Assembly (NCBI GenBank): GCA_021783235.1
Contig: JAJXUD010000048.1
Coordinates: forward strand, 1-35,570
Reading direction: 5' to 3'
DNA length: 35,570 nt
Source: Myxococcales bacterium
Lineage (GTDB): Bacteria > Myxococcota > Myxococcia > Myxococcales > JAKAPL01
Positions 20,966 through 34,665 of this stretch are shown piece after piece; positions within the stretch are counted from its first letter, which is position 1, and each line of letters starts with the position of its first letter. Below the pieces are notes generated by a model, which had not been told where the DNA came from, made no database searches, and saw nothing but the letters and a program-made list of their open reading frames with translations. Position numbers and translations under genes: made by a program.

Positions 20966-21130
20966 TAGCCTTGGCGCGAGCGGGGAACAAGCCGCGGGCG
21001 GAGGGCCCGGTCGATGGGGGGACCCTTCGAGCCGTCCGCCCGCCTGGCCGGAGCTTTGACAGCGGCTCCCCCTGGGTGGAATCCTAGCCCTCGGCGGAAC
21101 TCAGCTCCATGCCCCGCCGGAGGTCTACCA

Positions 21131-24100
21131 TTGCGCGCACGCACCTGGGCCCTGTTCGCGGCCGCCTCGCTCCTCGCGTGCGGCCGGACGCCGCTGCATC
21201 GCTGCGACGTCGACGGCTGCCCGAGCGGCCAGACCTGCGCGCTCGAGGGGACGCTCTGGAGCTGCGTCGCGGGCGACGGCGGAACCGACGCGGGGAGCGA
21301 CGCGGGCTCGGACGCCGGCTTCGACGGCGGGACCGACGCCGGCTGCTCGGCTCCCGGCTTCCAGTGGTGCGACGGTAGCTGCACCGACATCGCGGCCGAT
21401 CCCTCGAACTGCGGTGGCTGCGGACGGCTCTGCCCGGCTGGGGACGTCTGCCAGGATGGCACCTGCCAGTGCCCGGCCTCGGGCCCGTGCGGCCAGTGCC
21501 CTCCGGGCCAGCTCCTCTGCGGCGGGGCCTGCGTCGATCCGAACACCGACCCGGGGAACTGCGGCCTCTGCGGCAAGGCTTGCGGCTCGGGCGAGAGCTG
21601 CAACGGCGGCGCCTGCGGCTGCCCAGCGAACGAGATCCAGTGCGGGGCGGGCTGCACGAACCCGCTCGGCGACCCGCAGAACTGCGGCTTCTGCGGCAAC
21701 GCCTGCGCGGCGGGTCAGGCCTGCGTGAACGGCGGCTGCGCCTGCACCGGCTCCGAGATCGTCTGCGGCAGCGCCTGCACCGACACCGCGACCGATCCAC
21801 TGAACTGCGGCGGCTGCGGCAGCATCTGCCCCGCGGGGGCCGCCTGCGTCGCCGGGCAGTGCCAGACGAGCTGCGCGCCGCCGAGCGTCCCCTGTCCCGA
21901 CGGTAGCTGCGCCGACCTCTCGAGCGACCCGAAGGACTGCGGCCAGTGCGGCACCGTCTGCGGCGGCGCCAGCCCGCTCTGCAGCGCCGGAAGCTGCAAG
22001 GCGAGCTGCGGCCCGGGGCTGACCTCGTGCAACGGGGCCTGCGTCGACCTCGCCACCGATCCAGGGGACTGCGGCCAGTGCGGCATCGCCTGCGCGGCCA
22101 CCGAGGTCTGCGCGGGCGGCCTCTGCGGCTGCGCCGCCGGCGCCACGTTCTGCAAGGACGGCTGTGACGACCTCTCGTCCGAACCGTTCGACTGCGGCAG
22201 CTGCGGCGCCGCCTGTCCGGCCGGCGCGTTCTGCGTGCAGGGCCAGTGCCAGCAGAGCTGTCCGCCGGGCGACCTTCAGTGCGGCGGAGCCTGCGTGAAC
22301 CCGCTCACCGATTCCGCGAACTGCGGCGCCTGCGGCAAGGCCTGCGGCGCGGGCAGCTCCTGCCAGAACGGGCAGTGCCTGCCGGTCTGCCCGAACGGCG
22401 CGAGCGACTGCTCGGGGGTCTGCGTGGATCTCCAGAGCGACCCGCAGGACTGTGGGAGCTGCGGCCACGCCTGCCCCACGGGGCAGCTCTGCTCGACCGG
22501 CCAGTGCGCCCAGAGCTGCCAGAGCGGCCAGACCGACTGCTCCGGCGCCTGCGTCGACCTCGTGACCGACCCGCTCGACTGCGGGAGCTGCGGCAACGTC
22601 TGCGCGCCCTCGCAGATCTGCCAGGGCGGCCTCTGCGGCTGCCCGGCGGGCGACCTTCTCTGCGCCGGGAGCTGCGTCGACCCGGCCACCGATTCGAAGA
22701 ACTGCGGCTCCTGCGGCAACGCCTGCGCGGCGGGCACGAGCTGCCTCGCGGGGAGCTGCCAGAAGGGCTGCGGGCCCGGGCTCACCGACTGTGGCGGCGC
22801 CTGCGTGAACACGGAGACCGATCCCGCGGACTGCGGCGCCTGCGGCCACCTCTGCGCCGCCGGCCAGAGCTGCGTCGCGGGGAGCTGCGCGCTCGTCTGC
22901 CCGAGCGGCGAGGCCGTCTGCAACGGAAGCTGCGTGAACCTGCAGACGGACCCCGCGGACTGTGGCGGCTGCGGCAACGCCTGCCAGGCTGGTCAGAGCT
23001 GCCAGGCGGGCAGCTGCTTCTCGGCCGACGGCGGTACGGACGGCGGTGTCGACGGCGGTGTCGACGGAGGCACCGACGGCGGCGTCTGCCCGCCGGGGGC
23101 GATCGACTGTTCGGGCACCTGCGTCGACCCGCAGAGCGACCCCTCGAACTGCGGCGGCTGCGGGAACGCCTGCGCGCCGGGCGCGTCGTGCAGCGGCGGC
23201 GTCTGCGGGGCTCCCTGCCCGCCGGGGCAGCAGAACTGCTTCGGCTTCTGCATGGACGTGCAGAGCAATCCCTACAGCTGCGGGAGCTGCGGCAACATCT
23301 GCCAGAGCGGCGTCTGCCAGAACGGCGCCTGCGCCTGCAACCCCGGCCAGACGAGCTGCGGCGGCGTCTGCACGATCACCCAGACCGACCCCGGCAACTG
23401 CGGCGGCTGCAACAAGGTCTGCCCGTCCGGGGCCGTCTGCACGAACGGCCAGTGCGCGACGAGCTGCCAGCCGCCCGACACGAACTGCGGCGGCAGCTGC
23501 GCGAACCTCCAGACCGACCCCGGCAACTGCGGCGGCTGCTTCAACGCCTGCCCCATCGGCCAGCAGTGCTCGAACGGCGCCTGCGCCTGCCTCCCGCCCG
23601 ACGTCCTCTGCAACGACTTCGGCTTCCAGCTCTGCTCGAACCTCGAGAACGACCCGCTCAACTGCGGCGGCTGCGGGGTGATCTGCACCCAGGGCTCCTG
23701 CGTGGCCGGGCAGTGCACCGGCACGAGCTGCCCCTCGGGCCAGCTCCTCTGCTCGGGGAGCTGCATCGATCCGCAGACGGATTCCCAGGACTGCGGCGGC
23801 TGCGGCAATGCCTGCGGCCCGAACGAGGTCTGCCAGCAGGGCGTCTGCAGCTGCACGCTCGTCTGCCAGCCGGGCGAGTCGCTCTGTGGCTGCGCCTGCG
23901 TGAACCTCAGGACGGACCGGTCGGACTGCGGCAGCTGCGGCAACGTCTGCCCCGCGGGCGACAGCTGCACGGGTGGCCACTGCAAGCCGCCGGTCAGCTG
24001 CTACCCCGGTCAGCTCGACTGCAACAACACGTGCATCGATCCGAGCACGAGCGACGGGAACTGCGGCTCGTGCGGCAACCGCTGCTCGAGCGGGACGATC

Positions 24101-25009
24101 TGCGTGAACGGGAGCTGCGCCTGCCCGCCGGGCGACATCAGCTGCGGCGGCGTCTGCGTGGATCCGGCGAGCGCTCCGAACGACTGCGGTAGCTGCGGGG
24201 ACGTCTGCCCGACGGGCGATGTCTGCTCGAACGGCCAATGCGTCGGTAGCTGCGCGCCGTCTCTCACCGACTGCGCCGGCCACTGCCTCGACAGCCAGAC
24301 CGACAGCAAGAACTGCGGCGCCTGCGGGGCGGCCTGCCAGGGCGGGCAGCTCTGCAGGGGCGGACAGTGCGTCTGCCCGCCCGATCTCGTCGACTGCCGC
24401 GGCCACTGCGTCGATCTCTCCTTGAGCGCGACCGACTGCGGGAGCTGCGGCAACGCCTGTCCGGCGGGCCAGTCCTGCCTCTTCGGCGGTTGCACCGCGA
24501 GCTGCCCGGGCGGCCTGACCGCCTGCATGGGCGCCTGCTCCGACGTCACCTCGGACTCGTCGAACTGCGGCGGCTGCGCGGTGAGCTGCTACGGCGGCGA
24601 GACGTGCCAGAACGGCGGCTGCGCCTGCACCGGTGGGTTGACCCCATGCAACGGGCTCTGCGTGGACACGGCGAGCGACCCGAACGACTGCGGCGGCTGC
24701 GGCCAACGCTGCGGCCCGAACCAGGTCTGCGCGAACGGCTCCTGCGCGGCGAGCTGCCCCTCGGGGGAGACGGACTGCGGCGGCGCCTGCGCCGACCTCT
24801 CGTCGGACGTCCAGAACTGTGGCGGCTGCGGCCTCGCGTGCCTCGCCGGCTCGAGCGAGATCTGCCAGGGCGGCAGCTGCGTCTGCCCCCAGGGGCAGAC
24901 GCTCTGCCAGGGCCAGTGCACCGACACGACGGTCGACCCCGACGACTGCGGCGGCTGCGGCATCCTCTGCGGGCCGAACGGGAGCTGCGTCAACAGCCAG
25001 TGCCAGTGA
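21131..25009 (+). CDS. Giant Cys-rich repeat lipoprotein (28 repeats)
   Basis: A 1292-residue lipoprotein. The TTG start at 21131 is fixed by GGAGG seven bases upstream and gives a signal peptide ending ASLLAC (Cys17). An Asp/Gly linker (49-71, repeats of DAGS/DGGT) is followed by 13 repeats. A second Asp/Gly linker (633-652, DGGTDGGV type) is followed by 15 more. Each repeat is about 43 residues with about eight Cys, in the pattern C-x-G-x-C-(V/A)-(D/N)-x(6)-D-x2-(N/D)-C-G-x-C-G-x2-C-x(5)-C-x-G-x-C. More than 200 cysteines are estimated. The pattern matches the myxobacterial Cys-rich proteins sometimes called MXAN_6577-like. It should form a long disulphide-braced rod on the cell surface; adhesion is a guess. 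No enzyme domain. Confidence 0.93.
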   Translation: MRARTWALFAAASLLACGRTPLHRCDVDGCPSGQTCALEGTLWSCVAGDGGTDAGSDAGSDAGFDGGTDAGCSAPGFQWCDGSCTDIAADPSNCGGCGRLCPAGDVCQDGTCQCPASGPCGQCPPGQLLCGGACVDPNTDPGNCGLCGKACGSGESCNGGACGCPANEIQCGAGCTNPLGDPQNCGFCGNACAAGQACVNGGCACTGSEIVCGSACTDTATDPLNCGGCGSICPAGAACVAGQCQTSCAPPSVPCPDGSCADLSSDPKDCGQCGTVCGGASPLCSAGSCKASCGPGLTSCNGACVDLATDPGDCGQCGIACAATEVCAGGLCGCAAGATFCKDGCDDLSSEPFDCGSCGAACPAGAFCVQGQCQQSCPPGDLQCGGACVNPLTDSANCGACGKACGAGSSCQNGQCLPVCPNGASDCSGVCVDLQSDPQDCGSCGHACPTGQLCSTGQCAQSCQSGQTDCSGACVDLVTDPLDCGSCGNVCAPSQICQGGLCGCPAGDLLCAGSCVDPATDSKNCGSCGNACAAGTSCLAGSCQKGCGPGLTDCGGACVNTETDPADCGACGHLCAAGQSCVAGSCALVCPSGEAVCNGSCVNLQTDPADCGGCGNACQAGQSCQAGSCFSADGGTDGGVDGGVDGGTDGGVCPPGAIDCSGTCVDPQSDPSNCGGCGNACAPGASCSGGVCGAPCPPGQQNCFGFCMDVQSNPYSCGSCGNICQSGVCQNGACACNPGQTSCGGVCTITQTDPGNCGGCNKVCPSGAVCTNGQCATSCQPPDTNCGGSCANLQTDPGNCGGCFNACPIGQQCSNGACACLPPDVLCNDFGFQLCSNLENDPLNCGGCGVICTQGSCVAGQCTGTSCPSGQLLCSGSCIDPQTDSQDCGGCGNACGPNEVCQQGVCSCTLVCQPGESLCGCACVNLRTDRSDCGSCGNVCPAGDSCTGGHCKPPVSCYPGQLDCNNTCIDPSTSDGNCGSCGNRCSSGTICVNGSCACPPGDISCGGVCVDPASAPNDCGSCGDVCPTGDVCSNGQCVGSCAPSLTDCAGHCLDSQTDSKNCGACGAACQGGQLCRGGQCVCPPDLVDCRGHCVDLSLSATDCGSCGNACPAGQSCLFGGCTASCPGGLTACMGACSDVTSDSSNCGGCAVSCYGGETCQNGGCACTGGLTPCNGLCVDTASDPNDCGGCGQRCGPNQVCANGSCAASCPSGETDCGGACADLSSDVQNCGGCGLACLAGSSEICQGGSCVCPQGQTLCQGQCTDTTVDPDDCGGCGILCGPNGSCVNSQCQ
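21344..25006 (+). repeat. 28 imperfect Cys-rich coding repeats of about 130 bp
   Basis: The unit is recognised by an NCGGCG or DCGSCG core, found 28 times in this stretch (13 before and 15 after the second Asp/Gly linker). Variants replace the last Gly (GGCN, GGCF, GGCA in repeats 16, 17 and 25) or the Asn/Asp (YSCGSCG in repeat 15). The units are diverged at DNA level, so expansion is not recent, but recombination between them is possible. Confidence 0.9.
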
Positions 25010-26044: not shown

Positions 26045-27151
26045 CTACTGGCAGTTGCCGATCGACGCGTCGGGCTCGCCGGCGAGCGGGACGCACTGGC
26101 AGCTTGCGCCGAGATCGGGCGCTCCGAGAAGGCAGGGCGGCTCGCAGTCCGAGCCGCCGTCCGAGCCGGGGAGGCAGGCGAGGCCCGGCGCGCACGGGTT
26201 CTGGCCGCTGCCGTGGATCGGCGTGCAGCTCGCCCCGCGGCTCCCGGCGTCCGGGGCCGAGGTCGCACAGCCGCCGTAGGGCGCGTCGAGGTCGTCGGGT
26301 AGGCAGGTCGCTCCCGCGAAGCAGCCGCGTCCCCCGATCTCGCACGGTGGGCCAGCGAGGCAGAGGCCGAAGGGCCAGCCCGAGGCGGAGGAGCAGTGCT
26401 CGTCCGAGACGCAGGAGGGGCCGCCGTCCGCGTCGCAGAGGGGAACGCACTCGCCCTCGGCGGAGAGGCCGCTGGGGTCTGGCAGGCAGAGCATCCCCGC
26501 CGCGCAGAGGAGCGAGCCGTCGCGGTTCGAGGCCAGCGGGTCGCAGCGGCCGTACGGGGTGACCACCGTGCCGATCGCCGCGCAGACGTCGCCTCCGTTC
26601 CCGGGCAAGCAGCTCCCGGCGAGGTGGGGGCCGAGGGCACAGGGGAGCCAGGGCGTGCAGGCCGATTGGCCCGCCGGGCTGCAGTAGCCGGGCAGATCCG
26701 GATCGCCGCAGCTCGTGAGGTACGGGCACGGCGCCGAGTCGGCGCCATCGCAGGGGACGAGGCAGAGCGTCCGCTGGTTACCGCTCCAACTCGCCGCGAC
26801 GCACTCGAGCCCCGCGGGCGCGGGGCCGCAGCCGACCCCGGGTTCGCAGGCCTCGCCGTCGGCCGGCAGGCGGCAGGTCGACCGGCTGGAGTCGCAGGTG
26901 AGCCCCGCCGCGCAGCCGCCGGCGACCGCGGGGTCACAGGAGGCGCCGATGCCGCCGCCGTCGATCGCCATCCCCGTGGCGCCGCCGCCGTCGCCGCCCC
27001 CTCCCCCTCCCGAAGAGGAGGAGCCTCCCCCGACCGGCGAGCCGCCGCTGCCCGAGCCGCCGCCGAACGTGCCGGAGAGTGTGGGGGCGAAGGAGGCGGA
27101 GCAGGCGCCGACCATCGCGAGCGCCCCACCGAGCAGAAGACCGCGGATCAT
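26045..27151 (-). CDS. Cys-rich lipoprotein, last gene of the redox operon
   Basis: A 368-residue lipoprotein. The lipobox is AMVGAC (Cys17), then a Gly/Ser linker (about 28-70, with runs of Gly and Ser) and about 290 residues with many cysteines in short loops (CDPAVAGGCAAGLTC, CEPGVGCGP, CAAGMLCLPDP, CFAGATCLPDD, CAPGLACLPGS). No CxxCH heme motif is present. The loops resemble the Dickkopf-like or myxobacterial Cys-rich type. It lies 65 bp after the monoheme lipoprotein on the same strand. The leader is a little longer than other gaps in the operon, so it may have partial independence. Role unknown; perhaps a surface scaffold. Confidence 0.82.
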   Translation of the reverse strand: MIRGLLLGGALAMVGACSASFAPTLSGTFGGGSGSGGSPVGGGSSSSGGGGGGDGGGATGMAIDGGGIGASCDPAVAGGCAAGLTCDSSRSTCRLPADGEACEPGVGCGPAPAGLECVAASWSGNQRTLCLVPCDGADSAPCPYLTSCGDPDLPGYCSPAGQSACTPWLPCALGPHLAGSCLPGNGGDVCAAIGTVVTPYGRCDPLASNRDGSLLCAAGMLCLPDPSGLSAEGECVPLCDADGGPSCVSDEHCSSASGWPFGLCLAGPPCEIGGRGCFAGATCLPDDLDAPYGGCATSAPDAGSRGASCTPIHGSGQNPCAPGLACLPGSDGGSDCEPPCLLGAPDLGASCQCVPLAGEPDASIGNCQ

Positions 27152-27216
27152 GTGGCGGTTATGGCACGCGGCCCAAAGCCGCGGCAACTTCCCGCCCGGT
27201 GGCCTCGCCGCCCGCG

Positions 27217-27828
27217 TCAGTTGTTCTGCGCGCCCGCGTCGATCCAGGACTGGATCGCCTCGACGAGCTGCGCCGGCAGCGGCGGGCTCCCGGCCGGCGG
27301 CATCGGCTGGCCGTACTGGCTGGTCGTGCCGGTCTGGGTCACCTTGATGTAGAGCATGCTCTGGCTCGCGTTGCCGGGGACCACGCGGAGGATCTGCGCG
27401 TTCCACGACGAGGGCTCGCCCGTGCCGTTCGCGCCGAGCAGCGCCGTGTACGGGTCGGTCACGAGATCGAGGCTACCGAAGTACTTGCTGGCCCCGGCGC
27501 CGTGGCAGACCGTGCAGCCCTGGGCCTGGATGACGTTCTTGAGGACGAACTGGAAGGTCGCCGCCTGCTGCGTCCCGCCGTCGGACGGGGCCGGGGGCAG
27601 CGCCAGCTCGCAGAGCTGGTTTTGGCACGTCTGGCCCGGGTCGCATTGCGGATCGATGGTGCAAGGGCGCGGCGCGATCTGGCAGGCGCCGCCGGCGCAG
27701 TGGAAGCCCTGCGGGCAGTCGCCGTCGTGGACGCAGCCTTCGACCGGGTTGACCCCGTTCTCGACGGGCGGTTCGAGGCAGGCGGTGAGGCCGAGCGTGA
27801 GCGTGAGCAGGAGCGCGTGGCGTCTCAT
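27217..27828 (-). CDS. Monoheme c-type cytochrome lipoprotein
   Basis: A 203-residue lipoprotein with lipobox LGLTAC (Cys17). Residues 30-75 are Cys-rich loops of the same type as in the other lipoproteins here (CVHDGDCPQGFHCAGGAC, CDPGQTCQNQLC). The C-terminal part (about 88-203) is a cytochrome c domain: heme motif CTVCH (Cys105, Cys108, His109), probable axial Met in MPPAG (Met176) and the final helix LVEAIQSWIDAGA. The arrangement CxxCH...MPPAG...WIDAGA is usual in many bacterial c-type domains. Its ATG directly abuts the stop of the upstream diheme gene (TAGATG). It probably sits on the outer or inner membrane facing the periplasm and passes electrons. Confidence 0.88.
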   Translation of the reverse strand: MRRHALLLTLTLGLTACLEPPVENGVNPVEGCVHDGDCPQGFHCAGGACQIAPRPCTIDPQCDPGQTCQNQLCELALPPAPSDGGTQQAATFQFVLKNVIQAQGCTVCHGAGASKYFGSLDLVTDPYTALLGANGTGEPSSWNAQILRVVPGNASQSMLYIKVTQTGTTSQYGQPMPPAGSPPLPAQLVEAIQSWIDAGAQNN

Positions 27829-28311
27829 CTACACGCCTCCGTCCGCAGGCGCCGTCGTCGGCACGAAGAGCCGGCCGGGAGCGGGCGGGAAGCCGTTGAC
27901 GATGGGCTGCGGCGCCGCCGAATGGCACGAATTGCACGAGATCCCCGGCGGCGGAGGGAGATCCATCCGCATCCGGTGATCGCCCCACTGCGCCTCGACC
28001 CGGAGGGGCGGCGTCAGAGTCTCGGAGGTGTAGAAGTTGCCCACGTCGTCGGCGACGAGGGTCAGCGCCCGGTTGGGGCTGGACGAGTCGGTCACCAGGA
28101 TCTCGGCGTTCGACAGCCCGGCGTCCGCCGGCGACTTCGGGTCGGGGAAGACCGTGCCGGCGAGGGTCCAGGTCCGCTGCGCCGCCGTGCCCGTTGCCGA
28201 GTGGCACTGCATGCAATCGGAGCCCGGTAGCATCGATGGCGTTCCGTAGAGCCCCGAGACGTCGTAGCAGCCCCCGGCGAGGAGGGCGACGAGCAGGATT
28301 TCACTGCGCAC
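27829..28311 (-). CDS. Diheme c-type lipoprotein with an inserted beta domain
   Basis: A 160-residue lipoprotein. The GTG start at 28311 gives a signal peptide with lipobox LLAGGC (Cys15). Two heme motifs are widely spaced: CMQCH (Cys33-His37) and CNSCH (Cys126-His130). Between them lies a beta-rich segment (TLAGTVFPDP, AEILVTDSS, GNFYTSETLTPPLRVEAQWG) that looks like a carboxypeptidase-regulatory or CnaB-like domain. The start overlaps the end of the YceI gene by 11 bases, so translation is coupled. An in-frame ATG further upstream lies within the YceI gene and would not give a signal peptide. I know of no named family with this layout; it may couple redox state to binding. Confidence 0.85.
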   Translation of the reverse strand: MRSEILLVALLAGGCYDVSGLYGTPSMLPGSDCMQCHSATGTAAQRTWTLAGTVFPDPKSPADAGLSNAEILVTDSSSPNRALTLVADDVGNFYTSETLTPPLRVEAQWGDHRMRMDLPPPPGISCNSCHSAAPQPIVNGFPPAPGRLFVPTTAPADGGV

Positions 28312-28843
28312 GGTCGAACCAGAGGTCGAGCTTGATGCCCATTGCGTCGTTGATGGGGACGAAGAGGAGCTGCGGGCGCTGGATACCAAAGCCCTCGACG
28401 CTGGCGTCGAAGTCGCTCGTGACGTGGACCCGGTTCGCCCCCTCGTAGGTCAGCGTCACGGGCACGGTCTTCGTCTCGTTCTTGCCGTGCAGGTTCATCT
28501 CCACCTTGGCGTCGGCCTTCTGCGTGCCGCTCGCCTGGCCCGGGTCGAAGTGGACGAGCGCCTTGGCCGAGACGTTCGGGAAGCGGGCCGCCTCGACGGT
28601 CTCCATCATGTGCTCGTCGCGGTTCGAGTTCTCCGAATCGAAGTCCTTCACGTGGCCGACCACCTGGGCCTGGACGGTGCCGTCGGGCTTCATCAGCGCC
28701 TTGCCGTCCAGGTGGCCATGGTCGGTGCCGGTGAACTGGTGGAGTTTGTGGACGAGGTGGTAGCTGACCGTCGACTTCGATGCGTCGAGGTTCCACATGG
28801 TGCCCGCCGAGAGGGCCACGGAGAGTGCGATGGTCTGGAGCAT
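28301..28843 (-). CDS. YceI-family periplasmic protein
   Basis: A 180-residue exported protein. A short signal peptide (MLQTIALSVALSAG) is followed by the YceI beta-barrel. It shows WNLDASKSTVSYHLVH, the loop FDSENSNRDEHMMETVEAARFPNV (the family's most conserved element), EMNLHGKNETKTVPVTL, and the end FDASVEGFGIQRPQ, then DAMGIKLDLWF. YceI proteins bind polyprenyl-type lipids such as ubiquinone-like isoprenoids in a lipocalin-like barrel. In E. coli yceI lies beside the cytochrome b561 gene yceJ; here the neighbour is a four-helix His protein, an equivalent pairing. AAAGGAAG before the ATG supports the start, 18 bp after the membrane gene. Confidence 0.95.
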   Translation of the reverse strand: MLQTIALSVALSAGTMWNLDASKSTVSYHLVHKLHQFTGTDHGHLDGKALMKPDGTVQAQVVGHVKDFDSENSNRDEHMMETVEAARFPNVSAKALVHFDPGQASGTQKADAKVEMNLHGKNETKTVPVTLTYEGANRVHVTSDFDASVEGFGIQRPQLLFVPINDAMGIKLDLWFDRAQ

Positions 28844-28861
28844 GGGGGCTTCCTTTCGGGG

Positions 28862-29989
28862 TTAGAAGAAGAGGGCCGAGACGCCGGTGGTCATCGCCGC
28901 GGCCGTGATGTAGCCGATGATGAGGTGGGTGATGGCCATGGTCCCCTGGTTCACGTAACCCTCTCGAGAGACCGTGTAGATGCCGAGCGGGATCTCGGAG
29001 GCCATGCCGATGGTCGCGACGAGCATCGACCATTTGTGGATCGTCACGCTGTCGATCCCCTCGCTCTTCTTCTCGAAGGGGACGGGGGCGAAGAGCGCGA
29101 GGAGCCCGGTGGTGGCGAAGCTCAGCACCGTCGCCATCTCGAGGGTGCTGTGCCAGATCTCGAACTGGCCGCTGCTGCCGCCGCCTCCGAAGCGATCCGA
29201 GTAGTTGAGCTGGCCCGTGATCACCGTGCCGAGCATCAGCGCCGAGGTGGCGATGCCGAAGGCCTGGTGGACCTCGAGCATCGATCGGCGCGTCTTGACC
29301 TTTCGCTCGACGATCGCGGCGTCCGCGGCGGAGGGGCCGCTCTCCTGGACCAGGTCGAAGCTCATACTCGACGGCGCCTCGGGGGCGTCCGCCGGCCTGC
29401 CCGAGGCGGTCGTGGAGCCCTCGACGTCGTGGGCGGGGATGACGTCGTCGCTCCCCCCGGCGGGCGTGCTGCCGCTCGCGGGGCTCGCGAGCACCCGTCG
29501 AGTCGAGACCGACTGGCCGGCAGAACCGGCGGGGACCTTCTCCTTGATGGTCACCCAGTGGCAGTGCTTGTGGTGGGCCTTGCACTTCTTGACCCGCCGG
29601 CTGCGCGTCACGAACTGGGGAGCGGCCGGCGCGGGAGCGGGCGCCGGGGCCTCCTCGACCTCCGCGGGGCTCGAGCGGACGGGCTTCCGCTCGGGCGCCG
29701 GGGGAGCTGCCTCCTCCGCTGGCGCCTCCTCGGAAGGGCGTGCCACGGGGGCGCGGCGCGGAGGAGCGGGGAGCGCTTCGTCGGGCTTGATCTTGTCGTC
29801 GTCGTCGTCCGCGTCGTCGGAGGACGACGGGGCGGCGGGGCCGGCGCCATGGATCACCCGGGCGGGCCCGGGCGCGGCGGCGGGTTCGTCATCGTCGAGC
29901 TGCGCCCGCGCGGCGGAAGCCTGCGGGAGCAGCGCGACGATGACGGCGAGGCGGAAGAGGATCGAGGAGAGACGCAGTCGCCGGTTCAC
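28862..29989 (-). CDS. Four-helix membrane protein, probable b-type cytochrome
   Basis: A 375-residue protein. A signal peptide (1-26) is followed by about 205 residues of Pro/Ala/Glu-rich low-complexity sequence. This holds a Cys/His motif, CKAHHKHCH (136-144). Four membrane helices then follow at about 240-262, 280-302, 317-340 and 351-373. Each helix has one His near its start: His241, His280, His318, His355. With the N-terminus outside, His241/His318 lie on the periplasmic face and His280/His355 on the cytoplasmic face. Two bis-His b hemes would fit, as in cytochrome b561. This is inference from spacing; I recognise no close family. YceI and c-type lipoproteins flank it. The long periplasmic linker could reach the lipoproteins. 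Confidence 0.75.
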   Translation of the reverse strand: MNRRLRLSSILFRLAVIVALLPQASAARAQLDDDEPAAAPGPARVIHGAGPAAPSSSDDADDDDDKIKPDEALPAPPRRAPVARPSEEAPAEEAAPPAPERKPVRSSPAEVEEAPAPAPAPAAPQFVTRSRRVKKCKAHHKHCHWVTIKEKVPAGSAGQSVSTRRVLASPASGSTPAGGSDDVIPAHDVEGSTTASGRPADAPEAPSSMSFDLVQESGPSAADAAIVERKVKTRRSMLEVHQAFGIATSALMLGTVITGQLNYSDRFGGGGSSGQFEIWHSTLEMATVLSFATTGLLALFAPVPFEKKSEGIDSVTIHKWSMLVATIGMASEIPLGIYTVSREGYVNQGTMAITHLIIGYITAAAMTTGVSALFF

Positions 29990-30003
29990 GATGGGGGCTT
30001 ACT

Positions 30004-31173
30004 CTACTGCGGCATGCCGCAGTTGATCCAGGCCAGGATCCGACTCTGGTCGGAGGAGGACAGTCCGCCCCCCGGCGGCATCGAACCGCTCTGAATCCTC
30101 GAGGAGATGTTCGAGGAGTCGCCCTGCACCTGGCTGTACTGCGTGAAGTAGCTGTGGCACTGCGAGCAGTTGTTCGTGAAGAAGCTCAGGGCGAAGTTGG
30201 ACCAGGTGTCCGGCGTGCACTGCGGCGCGCCGCTCGTCGAGCCGCCGCTCGAGGAGCTGCTCGACGAGCTGCTCGTCGTGCCGCCGCTGCTGCCGCCCGA
30301 GCTGGAGCTCCCACCCGAGGTCGAGCTGCCACCCGAGGTGGAAGAGCCGCCCGAGGTCGAGCCACCGCCCGAGGTCGTCGTGCCCGTGGAGCAGCTACCG
30401 GAGGTCGGGAAGCAGTTCGAGCCCACCGTGTTCCCGCTCGAATCCTGGATCTGGTAGCACTGCGAGCCCGTGGGGCAGGCCTGGCCGCTGCTGCAGTCGG
30501 TGCCGCAGAACGTCGCGTTGGTCGAGTCCTGGAGGCAGAAGTTCTTGGTGCCGCCGCAATCGGAGTTCTGCGTGCAGGCCTTGCAAAGGGTGGAGCCGCC
30601 CGTGCCGCCGCTCGAGGTCGAGCTGCCGCCCGACGTGGAGCCGCCGCTCGTGAAGCCGCCGCTGCTGCCCGAGGAGGAAGAGGAGGACGACGACCCAGAG
30701 CCGCTGCCGGAGCCCGAGCCGCTTCCGGAACCGCTGCCAGAGCCGGAGCCATTGCCGGAGCCGCTGCTGCCCACGCCGGTCGCGCCGGAGCCGCCGTTCG
30801 AGCTGGACGAACTGCCGCTGCCGCTGCCGACGTTCGAGCCGCTGCTGCCCGAGCTCTGCGCGCCGGAGCCGCTGGGCGTCGACGACGCCGGGGCGCACTC
30901 GTGCGTCTCCTTGTCGCAGAGCTGGCCGCTGCCGCAGCCCTGGAGCGTGCAGTCGGGGACGCACTGGCCCTGGGGGCAGAAGTCGCCCGCGTTGCAGTCG
31001 GCCGAACTCCGGCAGCTCCGGTACGGCGAGGGGGAGCAGACGCCGCTCATGCAGGCGTCTCCCGGCGCGCAGTCGAGGTTGCTGCGGCAGGCCGCCCCCG
31101 GCTGGCCCCCGCTGCAGGAGGCGAGAAACGCGGCGGCCACTGCGACGATTCCGAAGGCGAGCGAGCGGTTCAT
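30004..31173 (-). CDS. Cys-rich c-type cytochrome lipoprotein, first gene of the redox operon
   Basis: A 389-residue lipoprotein. The lipobox is FLASC (Cys20). The first Cys-rich part (about 25-95) has CRSNLDCAPGDACMSGVC and CNAGDFCPQGQC. A long Ser/Gly linker (about 100-190, with GS dipeptide runs) leads to a second Cys-rich part (about 198-265) and a second Ser/Gly/Thr linker (about 265-320). A C-terminal cytochrome c domain follows, with heme motif CSQCH (Cys336-His340), probable axial Met365 in MPPGG and the final helix RILAWINCG. The linkers look like flexible spacers for reaching across the envelope. CAGGAG eight bases before the ATG supports the start. It leads the operon; the next gene begins 14 bp after its stop. 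Confidence 0.88.
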   Translation of the reverse strand: MNRSLAFGIVAVAAAFLASCSGGQPGAACRSNLDCAPGDACMSGVCSPSPYRSCRSSADCNAGDFCPQGQCVPDCTLQGCGSGQLCDKETHECAPASSTPSGSGAQSSGSSGSNVGSGSGSSSSSNGGSGATGVGSSGSGNGSGSGSGSGSGSGSGSGSGSSSSSSSSGSSGGFTSGGSTSGGSSTSSGGTGGSTLCKACTQNSDCGGTKNFCLQDSTNATFCGTDCSSGQACPTGSQCYQIQDSSGNTVGSNCFPTSGSCSTGTTTSGGGSTSGGSSTSGGSSTSGGSSSSGGSSGGTTSSSSSSSSSGGSTSGAPQCTPDTWSNFALSFFTNNCSQCHSYFTQYSQVQGDSSNISSRIQSGSMPPGGGLSSSDQSRILAWINCGMPQ

Positions 31174-31493
31174 GGTCGGGCTCCTGAAAAGTTTGCGCGA
31201 ACATACGCAAGGTCCGGGCCATGGTTCCATCGAACGCAACCCATCGGAATGACGATCTCGTGATCGGCAGAGGCGTTCACGAAGTGTACGGCTGATCTCA
31301 CCCCGGACAGTGCGGCTGGGTGCATTCACGCAGCCTCCGCCGCCGTCGCCTCCTTAATAGCGGGCTGGTCGTGCGGCGGCCCCTCCCCTCGGCGAGCGCA
31401 AAAAGAGCGGCTTCGCCCAATCGTCACAGACGGCTTTCTGGACGGTCACCTCGGGCGCGTATACCTCGGCGCGTCCCCACACCGGAGGTCGTC
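31174..31493. promoter_or_regulatory. Divergent regulatory region of the redox operon and porin
   Basis: This 320-bp gene-free stretch separates the minus-strand redox operon from the plus-strand porin. It is less GC-rich near the operon. TTGCG (31193-31197) and CGCAA (31206-31210) form an inverted repeat with an 8-bp spacer in the operon leader, just upstream of its ribosome binding site; this could be an operator or a leader hairpin. No clear -10/-35 pair was recognised for either gene. A plus-strand frame extends into it from the porin but has no signals and would bury the signal peptide. Confidence 0.45.
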
Positions 31494-33074
31494 TTGCCCC
31501 TGCTCGCACCGCTCGCACTCGCCCTGACCCTCGTCGCAGATCCCGCGGCGAACGCCGCCCCGCCGGAGGCGCCCGCCCCGGCGGGCCAGCCCGAGAACCG
31601 GGCCGGCCAGGCGGCCACCCCGCCCACCGAGACCCCGCAGTTCGTCTCGCCGGCCCATGAGCCCGCGCCGCCCGAGTCGCCGGAGGCCAAGGACCCCGGC
31701 ATCCGGCTCGAGCTCACCACCCTCGAGGCGCTGCGCAAGCAGGGCGTCATCTCGGAGAAGCAGCTCGCGGGGGCGCGCGAGGATCTCATCGAGGAGGGCT
31801 CGCACGTGCTCACCGCGCCGACCCTCGTCGTCGGCAAGTTCGCCACCACCATGTACGGCTTCATCGAGGCCGACATGATGCACGACAGCACCCGTAGCTT
31901 CGTCGACCTCGCGGGGATGGGCGGCGTCGCCCAGCCCGGCACCGAGAACGGCGACAACGGCCGCACGATGTTCGGCATCCGCAACAGCCGGCTCGGCTTC
32001 CACCTGACGGCGCCCGAGACCAACGGAATCCGCGCGAGCGGCTGGCTCGAGATGGACTTCCTCGGCAACCAGCCGGGCACGGCGCCGCAGCCGGGCTTCA
32101 AGGAAGGCCCGTTCTGGAACAACCCGACCTTCCGCGTCCGCCACTTCCTGCTCAAGCTGGACAACGACGTCGTGGCCCTCTGGTTCGGCCAGACCTGGGA
32201 ACTCGTCGGCTGGCAGGCGGCGTTCCAGCCGAACACCGTGGCGATCCAGGGCGTCCCCGGCGAGCTCTACTCTCGGACTCCGCAGCTTCGGCTCGTCAAG
32301 TCGGTCCACCTCGGCCCGACGACCCTCGAGGTGGCCGCCGCGGCGCTGCGCCCCCCGCAGATGGACAGCGAGGTCCCGGATCTCCAGGGCGGCGTCAAGC
32401 TCTCGATCGACCACTGGACCGGCGTGCAGACCGTCGGCGCGACGGGCACCTCGATCGCCCCGGCGACCTTCGGCCTCTCGGGCGGCCTGCGAAACTACAA
32501 GCTCGTCGACGGCCCGAACCCGGACAGCCTCGCCTCCACCTGGGGCCACGCGCTCGCGGCGGACGTGATGTTGCCGATCCTCCCCGCGAAGGAGCGCAAG
32601 GAGTGGGCGCTGACGTTCGTCGGCGAGGCCTCGACCGGCTCGGGCGACGCCGACCTCTTCACCGGCCTCACCGGCAACGCCGCGGTCGGCGCGCCCTCGG
32701 GCTTCGCCGGCGGGCCGAGCAAGTACTCCGCCGTCGCCGACATCGACCCGGGCCTCGCCGGCTGGGGCCCCACGGGCTCGCTCGAGACGATCGACTGGCG
32801 CTCGCTCATCGTCTCGGCGCAGCTCTACCTGCCGCCGAACGGCGATCTCTGGCTCGCCGCCTCGTACAGCAACACCTACTCCGACAACATGTCGGACTTC
32901 GGCTCGCCCGCCTCGGTCTTCAACCACGAGATCTGGTGGGACGTGAACCTCTTCGCCGACGTGACCCCCTCGACGCGGCTCGGCTTCGAGTACTCGCACT
33001 TCGACACGGTCTACTTGAACGGCGTCCAGGCGCCCGACAACCGCTTCCAGCTCTCCGCGTTCTACATCTTCTAG
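31494..33074 (+). CDS. Outer-membrane beta-barrel porin
   Basis: A 526-residue outer-membrane protein. The TTG start follows GGAGG at 31483-31487 and gives a signal peptide (LPLLAPLALALTLVADPAANA). A Pro/Ala linker and a short helical stretch come next (LELTTLEALRKQGVISEKQLAGAREDLIE), which could form a coiled coil. The barrel begins YGFIEADMMHDSTR and continues with many amphipathic strands (SRLGFHLTAPETNGIRASGWLEMDF, VALWFGQTWELVGW). It ends QLSAFYIF with a terminal Phe, the usual outer-membrane insertion signal. The pattern resembles phosphate-selective (OprO/P-like) and DcaP-like porins. The substrate is unknown. Divergent position beside the redox operon may mean joint regulation. Confidence 0.85.
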   Translation: MPLLAPLALALTLVADPAANAAPPEAPAPAGQPENRAGQAATPPTETPQFVSPAHEPAPPESPEAKDPGIRLELTTLEALRKQGVISEKQLAGAREDLIEEGSHVLTAPTLVVGKFATTMYGFIEADMMHDSTRSFVDLAGMGGVAQPGTENGDNGRTMFGIRNSRLGFHLTAPETNGIRASGWLEMDFLGNQPGTAPQPGFKEGPFWNNPTFRVRHFLLKLDNDVVALWFGQTWELVGWQAAFQPNTVAIQGVPGELYSRTPQLRLVKSVHLGPTTLEVAAAALRPPQMDSEVPDLQGGVKLSIDHWTGVQTVGATGTSIAPATFGLSGGLRNYKLVDGPNPDSLASTWGHALAADVMLPILPAKERKEWALTFVGEASTGSGDADLFTGLTGNAAVGAPSGFAGGPSKYSAVADIDPGLAGWGPTGSLETIDWRSLIVSAQLYLPPNGDLWLAASYSNTYSDNMSDFGSPASVFNHEIWWDVNLFADVTPSTRLGFEYSHFDTVYLNGVQAPDNRFQLSAFYIF

Positions 33075-33189: not shown

Positions 33190-34665
33190 TCAGGAGATCG
33201 TCGGCGCCTGGCGGTGCAGCGGCAGCTCGCGCTCCAGCGCCCCGCCGAGCGCGAAGAGCGTCTCCTCGTCGAACGGCCGGCCGAGGAGCTGCAAGCCGAT
33301 GGGCAGCCCGGCCTTCGAGAAGCCGCAGGGGACCGAGAGGCCCGGCAGCCCGGCGAGGTTGCAGGAGATGGTGAAGATGTCCGCCAGGTACATCTGGAGC
33401 GGATCGTCCACCTTCTCGCCGAGCCGGAAGGCGGGCGTCGGCGTCGTCGGGCCGACCAGGGCGTCGCAGCTCTCGAAGGCCCGCTCGAAGTCGCGCCGGA
33501 TGAGCGTGCGGACCTTCTGGGCCTTCAGGTAGTAGGCGTCGTAGTAGCCGGCCGAGAGCACATAGGTGCCGAGCATGATGCGCCGCTTCACCTCGGGGCC
33601 GAAGCCGTCGGCGCGGGTCCTCAGGTACATCTCGCGCAGCGAGCGGGCGTCGGGGGAGCGGGCGCCGTAGCGGACGCCGTCGTAGCGCGCGAGGTTCGAG
33701 GAGGCCTCGGCGGTGGCCACGATGTAGTAGGTCGCCACCGCGTACTCGGTGTGCGGCAGCGAGAGCTCGACCGTCTTCGCGCCGAGCGCCTCGAGCCGGG
33801 CGATGCCCGCGCGCACGCTCGCCTCCACCTCGGGGTCGAGACCCGAGACGAAGTACTCGCGCGGCACGCCGACCCGCAGCCCCTTCACGCCCCGGGCGCT
33901 GGCGGCGCGGTAGTCGGGCACGGGCACGTCGGCCGAGGTCTGGTCGAGCGGGTCGTGGCCCGCGATGGCCTGCAAGAGCAGCGCGCAGTCCTCGGCGGTC
34001 CGGGCCATCGGCCCCACCTGGTCGAGCGAGGAGGCGAAGGCGACGACGCCGTAGCGGCTGACGCGGCCGTAGGTGGGTTTGAGCCCCGCGATTCCGCAGA
34101 GCGAGGCGGGCTGCCGGATGGAGCCGCCGGTGTCGGTGCCGAGGCTGCCGAAGACCTCGCGCGCCGCCACCGCCGCCGCGCTGCCGCCGGAGGAGCCGCC
34201 GGGCACGCGCGAGAGATCCCAGGGGTTGTGGACCTTCTCGAAGGGCGTGTTCTCGTTCGACGAGCCCATGGCGAACTCGTCCATCGAGAGCTTGCCGGTG
34301 AGCACGGCCCCCGCGGCCTCGAGCCGCGCCACGGCGGTGCCGTCGAAGGGCGGCCGGAAGCCGCGCAGGATCTTCGATCCCGCCGTGGTCTCGACCCCCT
34401 CGGTGACGAAGATGTCCTTGAGGGCGAGCGGCACGCCGTCGAGCGGCGAGAGCGCGCTCCCCGAGGCGCGCCGGCCGTCCGCCGCCTTCGCCGCGGCGAG
34501 CGCCCCGGCCTCGTCCACGAGGAGGAAGGCGTGGATCTTCGGATCGAGCTCGGCCGTGCGCGAGAGGCTCGCGCGCGTCGCCTCCTCGCTCGAGAGCTCC
34601 TTGCGCGCAAGCCGCTCGGAGAGCTCGGCGATCGTCAGCGCGCAGATCTCGACGGAGGCGGCCAT
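33190..34665 (-). CDS. gatA: Asp-tRNA(Asn)/Glu-tRNA(Gln) amidotransferase subunit A
   Basis: A 491-residue amidase of normal length. The amidase-signature catalytic triad is complete: Lys83 (LALKDIF), cis-Ser158 (PGGSSGGSA) and Ser182 ([13 protein letters not shown]), with the same spacing as in characterised GatA. The end ([24 protein letters not shown]) is typical. GatA releases ammonia from glutamine or asparagine, which GatB uses to convert Glu-tRNA(Gln) or Asp-tRNA(Asn). The gene starts four bases after the gatC stop. No gatB follows: the next gene is convergent, so gatB must lie elsewhere. Confidence 0.97.

Follow-up and report, generated by a model that had tools for sequence, protein, structure and literature searches.

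Proteins of the YceI family occur commonly, but no settled role has been assigned to them. We analyzed a 35,570-nucleotide stretch of a Myxococcales bacterium genome (GenBank assembly GCA_021783235.1, contig JAJXUD010000048.1, positions 1 to 35,570; hereafter the window), in which a YceI gene lies beside genes for a four-helix protein resembling cytochrome b561 and three c-type cytochrome lipoproteins. A first-pass annotation had described six minus-strand genes here, and all six open reading frames (ORFs) are present, running from 31173 to 26045. Genes 1 to 5 (31173..27217) form a tight block in the order monoheme lipoprotein, four-helix protein, YceI, diheme lipoprotein, monoheme lipoprotein, with gaps of 14 bp, 18 bp, -11 bp (an overlap) and 0 bp, and they may be transcribed as an operon. 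The spacing of mostly 0-18 bp that had been proposed holds for this block and fails for gene 6, which is separated from gene 5 by 65 bp. Across the Myxococcota, the conserved core of this module is the four-helix protein and YceI, usually with one redox partner, either a Rieske protein or a diheme cytochrome c. The features of the locus are as follows.

30004..31173, minus strand: gene 1, monoheme c-type lipoprotein, 389 aa, with lipobox LASC, Cys-rich N-terminal repeats, Ser/Gly spacers and a C-terminal heme domain
30154..30168, minus strand: CSQCH heme c motif of gene 1 (sequence)
28862..29989, minus strand: gene 2, four-helix b561-like protein, 375 aa, with a GTG start, a signal peptide and a long Pro/Ala-rich linker
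29348..29359, minus strand: FDLV, the gene 2 form of the (D)FDLL linker motif, residues 211-214 (conservation across loci)
28865..29326, minus strand: four-helix core of gene 2, residues 222-375 (AlphaFold2 model)
29267..29269, minus strand: His241, helix 1, putative periplasmic-side heme b ligand (conservation and model)
29150..29152, minus strand: His280, helix 2, putative cytoplasmic-side heme b ligand (conservation and model)
29036..29038, minus strand: His318, helix 3, putative periplasmic-side heme b ligand (conservation and model)
28925..28927, minus strand: His355, helix 4, putative cytoplasmic-side heme b ligand (conservation and model)
28301..28843, minus strand: gene 3, YceI-family lipocalin of a divergent subgroup, 180 aa (PF04264, 45.5 bits)
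27829..28311, minus strand: gene 4, diheme c-type lipoprotein, 160 aa, with a GTG start and a transthyretin-like domain between the heme motifs
28201..28215, minus strand: CMQCH heme c motif of gene 4 (sequence and homologue alignment)
27922..27936, minus strand: CNSCH heme c motif of gene 4 (sequence and homologue alignment)
27217..27828, minus strand: gene 5, monoheme c-type lipoprotein, 203 aa, with a Cys-rich half and a heme half
27502..27516, minus strand: CTVCH heme c motif of gene 5 (sequence)
26045..27151, minus strand: gene 6, Cys-rich lipoprotein without a heme motif, 368 aa

A conserved core with exchangeable redox partners

A profile search of 195 genomes, all from the Myxococcota, found the gene 2 family in 86 of them, and no relative appeared in the plasmids searched. 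We scored the neighborhoods of 66 loci, some of which end near contig edges, calling ORFs beyond the window with a simple script and counting YceI genes within 4 kb. A YceI gene lies within this distance of the four-helix gene in 54 of the 66 loci, on the same strand in every case, downstream in 43 and upstream in 11. Of the six homologous loci that came from a genome scan, L001 has the order seen in the window: gene 1, gene 2, YceI, the diheme protein and then a Cys-rich protein without heme. Conservation of the gene order in other Myxococcota, which the first-pass annotation had proposed to check, is borne out for the four-helix gene and YceI, usually with one partner, and not for the six-gene set, which is not a conserved unit. 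The pairing of a b561-like protein with YceI and extracytoplasmic redox lipoproteins, as the first-pass annotation had it, is upheld.

All partners found beside the four-helix gene are redox proteins. A Rieske protein alone is present at 35 loci, a diheme cytochrome c alone at 15, both at one and a gene 1-type protein alone at one; the remaining 14 have neither. All 36 Rieske matches are on the same strand as the four-helix gene and downstream of it, and the diheme proteins total 16. Several of the 14 partnerless loci end near a contig edge, and three (L088, L091 and L108) have an ORF with a monoheme CxxCH nearby. On a quick tree, the Rieske/diheme label needs at least two changes, which indicates that partner exchange is old and rare, and that the near-exclusive pattern reflects a few independent events, not 50 independent observations. 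The Rieske partner is Tat-exported, with two Rieske domains in L074 and L066 and one in L070.

The linker ahead of the four-helix core also carries a recurrent motif. At 56 of the 66 loci, FDLL, FDLV, FDLF, FDFL or FELL, often as DFDLL, stands 12-23 residues ahead of the core, and the other 10 mostly have close variants (DFNLL, DIDLL). Only 0.26% of shuffled linkers carry the motif. Judging from this sequence pattern, (D)FDLL is a possible docking site.

Some loci have further genes next to the gene 2 homologue. In L004, a plastocyanin/azurin-type copper protein is encoded directly upstream (L004:7211-7756). Just upstream in L006 are a cytochrome c gene and a gene for a 463-aa porin-like protein with FARQTGFSCSQCH at its N-terminus (L006:5598-7503). 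The porin-like protein has no family or PDB match. It may resemble fused cytochrome-porins such as Cyc2.

A four-helix protein with one histidine per helix

The AlphaFold2 model of gene 2 (m18afc505f801, built from seven aligned sequences) consists of four helices with a mean pLDDT of 81, spanning core residues 3-46, 54-79, 93-120 and 127-153. His241, His280, His318 and His355 fall one per helix, close to the helix starts, so that the histidines of helices 1 and 3 would point to one face and those of helices 2 and 4 to the opposite one. The four residues are kept in 53 of 54 distinct relatives, in line with the one-His-per-helix protein that had been described from the sequence. The model thus predicts that the conserved histidines pair across helices 1/3 and 2/4, a pairing derived from helix direction alone. 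An Arg pair ahead of helix 1 and an APxP motif in the loop between helices 2 and 3 are also conserved. A Cys/His cluster, KKCKAHHKHCHW (CKAHHKHCH), in the periplasmic linker (29539-29575, minus strand) was considered as a possible metal binding site and set aside; it is not seen in the L001 relative.

Gene 2 has no Pfam or NCBIfam model above cut-off, and the strongest sub-threshold hints for its family come from b561 families. PF03188 scores 15 bits against gene 2, under a cut-off of 23. Gene 2 itself has no PF01292 match, and the best family member, a relative in L069, reaches 19 bits against a cut-off of 30.1. Together with the His pattern, these scores rule out a PF01292 b561 like YceJ. 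An hhalign comparison of the gene 2 family with PF01292 sequences gave 62%, which is not significant, and the gene 2 profile found only chance-level matches to ba3 oxidase among PDB sequences. Foldseek returned no significant solved structure for the model; the only b561-type entry among the 50 matches listed is E. coli superoxide oxidase (5oc0; TM-score 0.56, E 2.3). With b561-type His anatomy and no significant profile or fold match, gene 2 is b561-like by anatomy, and its formal membership is unproven. It belongs to a Myxococcota family without a Pfam or NCBIfam model above cut-off, whose members putatively bind two b-type hemes.

YceI and the heme lipoproteins

The identification of gene 3 as YceI stands, with 45.5 bits against PF04264 (cut-off 23.7) and a signal peptide. 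Gene 3 belongs to a divergent subgroup; the other two YceI genes of the genome reach 185 and 158 bits. A search of the PDB with the single sequence found no match, whereas a subgroup profile of 11 rows, one of them E. coli YceI, finds 1y0g at 9e-40 and 1wub at 2.5e-13 and also matches the structure of a Campylobacter polyisoprenoid-binding protein.

The three lipoproteins contain all four CxxCH motifs attributed to them (CSQCH, CMQCH, CNSCH and CTVCH). From the Cys and His content of each protein, 0.003-0.012 motifs would be expected by chance, about two orders of magnitude fewer than observed. Genes 1, 4 and 5 each combine a signal sequence and lipobox with CxxCH, and cytochrome c maturation genes, whose absence the first-pass annotation had named as grounds for abandoning its proposal, are present in the genome (PF01578). 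Export, motif and maturation genes together mark these proteins as c-type cytochromes by sequence. None of the three has an Asp after the lipid Cys, and all have long spacers. The C-terminal CxxCH domain of gene 1 is found again in L051, L060, L064 and L003, where it is encoded upstream of the four-helix gene or close to it. In gene 4, both CxxCH motifs are invariant in six homologues. Its model places a beta sandwich between the heme motifs, whose flanks are of low confidence, and the best fold match is the transthyretin-like domain of carboxypeptidase D (E 0.016). At L061:4296-5906 (minus strand), a diheme homologue is fused into a longer protein with ten CxxCH motifs and Geobacter-type multiheme matches.

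The last two genes are less conserved. Relatives of gene 5 share its Cys-rich half, and the heme half was not found at the other loci, so we rejected the heme domain as a core part. Gene 6 is a Cys-rich lipoprotein, as had been described; it has no CxxCH, no Pfam or NCBIfam match and no tblastn match in the six homologous loci. Given these results and its 65 bp gap, gene 6 is probably not part of the conserved module.

Several other genes surround the cluster. A divergently transcribed porin-like ORF adjoins gene 1 (window 31320-33074, plus strand; Porin_4 20 bits, below the 27-bit cut-off), and a GatA amidotransferase subunit follows at 33190-34665 on the minus strand (594 bits). On the other side, a 1331-aa ORF (window 21014-25009, plus strand) matches the MXAN_6577-like cysteine-rich protein family 13 times (870 bits) and stops just short of an alcohol dehydrogenase gene.

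Comparison with described systems

The first-pass annotation knew of no described system with this set, but the b561-YceI core pair has already been published as LcoA-BcnA, a system for detoxifying lipid peroxyl radicals (PMC9113575). Mutants in the b561 or the YceI gene of that pair show more membrane lipid peroxidation, and its authors propose that ubiquinone bound to YceI is re-reduced by the b561 (PMC9113575). As in LcoA-BcnA, a gene for a diheme-type membrane protein adjoins a YceI lipocalin gene in the window, usually with the b561 gene first, although the described pair has no Rieske or cytochrome c partner as reported (PMC9113575). A YceI gene beside a membrane b561 gene, the arrangement by which such pairs are recognized, occurs at the 54 loci only if gene 2 counts as a b561. 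The E. coli counterpart, yceJ-yceI, is adjacent and in the same order as the window pair. YceJ, however, matches PF01292 at 105 bits, whereas the window protein has no such match and one His per helix, and the window YceI is divergent. Two histidines of the YceJ sequence lie in its last helix, and we take them to be two of its ligands. We found no description in the literature of YceI with a Rieske protein or of YceI with Myxococcus. No PF01292 b561, the usual YceI partner, scores above cut-off in the window's genome, and gene 2 may fill that place.

In its putative ligand pattern, gene 2 matches the eukaryotic b561 core and not E. coli YceJ. In eukaryotic b561 proteins, the non-cytoplasmic heme is held by the first and third histidines and the cytoplasmic heme by the other two, and the CYBDOM class has an outside N-terminus ahead of the b561 core (PMC10691727). 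Gene 2 resembles these PF03188 proteins in its four-helix core with one conserved His per helix, its conserved small residue at H4+4 and its N-terminal part, which is likewise predicted to be extracytoplasmic. It differs in being bacterial, in its sub-threshold PF03188 score, in having four helices rather than six and in having a linker in place of the DOMON domain. Superoxide oxidase CybB (5oc0, PF01292) is a four-helix membrane protein of similar size with the best b561-type TM-score among the matches listed, but the match is not significant, the His distribution is different and CybB has no partner genes of this kind. Cytochrome bc1/b6f complexes also combine a membrane b-type protein with a Rieske protein, and the Myxococcaceae partner (the family label is our assignment) has two Rieske domains closest to bc/b6f subunits. 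Gene 2, by contrast, lacks PF00033- or PF13631-type sequence. The genome has two other, separate cytochrome b/Rieske loci, so the gene 2 module is not its only such system.

Interpretation

We favor, with nearly an even chance of being right, the reading that the module is a variant of the LcoA-BcnA type of b561-YceI envelope pair that limits lipid peroxidation, in which the b561-type protein is a different one and exchangeable extracytoplasmic carriers have been added. Gene 2 would conduct electrons through the inner membrane by way of two b hemes, held near the periplasmic face by His241/His318 and near the cytoplasmic face by His280/His355, passing them one at a time between quinone pool and periplasm. 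YceI would be the periplasmic carrier of an isoprenoid lipid, which may be a quinone, and the lipoprotein cytochromes c here, or the Rieske proteins of other lineages, would serve as dedicated one-electron partners that lengthen the path in the direction of the outer membrane. Such a chain would most likely serve to maintain envelope lipids, or the lipid bound to YceI, in the reduced state, giving less lipid peroxidation, as proposed for LcoA-BcnA. It is also possible, if rather doubtful, that gene 2 is the founding member of a bacterial b561-type family with the eukaryotic/CYBDOM-like one-His-per-helix pattern and that, with YceI, it makes up a standard Myxococcota envelope redox machine in which Rieske and cytochrome c proteins are exchangeable and dock through the (D)FDLL motif.

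Several observations weigh against the favored reading. The PF03188 score, the hhalign result and the Foldseek search all fall short of significance, and the invariant Arg pair ahead of helix 1 would sit outside, contrary to the positive-inside rule. Twelve of the 66 loci have no YceI within 4 kb, among them that of a second gene 2 copy in the same genome, which belongs to a paralogous four-helix/diheme pair. Gene 3 is of a divergent YceI subgroup with no known ligand, and the LcoA-BcnA mechanism is itself a proposal.

The first-pass annotation pointed towards electron export, in which the four-helix protein would oxidize inner-membrane quinol and the lipoprotein cytochromes would carry electrons to acceptors located at the outer membrane or outside it. 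The absence of Asp after the lipid Cys, the long spacers, the ten CxxCH motifs of the L061 homologue and the L006/L053 locus, which directly upstream encodes a cytochrome c as well as a porin-like protein bearing an N-terminal CSQCH, agree with this idea. We nevertheless consider it unlikely, since 35 of 66 loci have a Rieske partner without a cytochrome and Rieske proteins are not usual parts of surface export, the genome (97% complete) has no PF11854 match for an MtrB/PioB porin and does have two ordinary cytochrome b/Rieske loci, and YceI has no known role in export chains. Electrons could instead flow inward, from superoxide or reduced periplasmic carriers to quinone, through a superoxide-oxidase-like enzyme. 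In superoxide oxidase, a site of positive charge lies close to the P-side heme (PMC11869295), to which the Arg pair, predicted on the periplasmic side, may be likened, and 5oc0 is the only b561-type structure among the 50 Foldseek matches listed. That match is not significant, the His pattern is unlike that of the PF01292 family, with YceJ as the example, and superoxide oxidase has no dedicated Rieske or c-type partners, which makes inward flow distinctly improbable.

There is a slim chance that the module feeds electrons to a periplasmic or outer-membrane enzyme, such as one modifying the YceI-carried lipid. In its favor, the partner can be exchanged, Rieske and c-type proteins donate single electrons generically and the linker motif resembles a docking site, but no conserved enzyme gene was seen in the neighborhoods examined. 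Chance adjacency of unrelated envelope genes would fit gene 6 and the heme half of gene 5, neither of which is conserved at the locus. As an account of the whole cluster it is scarcely credible, because genomes carry few YceI genes, and for genes 2-4 it is already contradicted by the conserved linkage, with YceI on the same strand at 54 of 66 loci and Rieske downstream in 36 of 36.

For the variant of LcoA-BcnA that we favor, the retention of the four-helix protein and YceI in relatives that often swap the heme proteins for a Rieske protein suggests that a known envelope-protection pair has a widespread version not yet described. If the b561-YceI unit of Myxococcota always has a Rieske or cytochrome c partner, electron transfer would be central to YceI pairs, and the dedicated partner would point to a redox reaction that can be measured. 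A eukaryotic-type b561 ligand pattern would then occur in bacteria beside a lipid carrier. If the families concerned are Myxococcaceae, as we infer, the Rieske form occurs in genera that include tractable myxobacteria, and deletion tests would be within reach.

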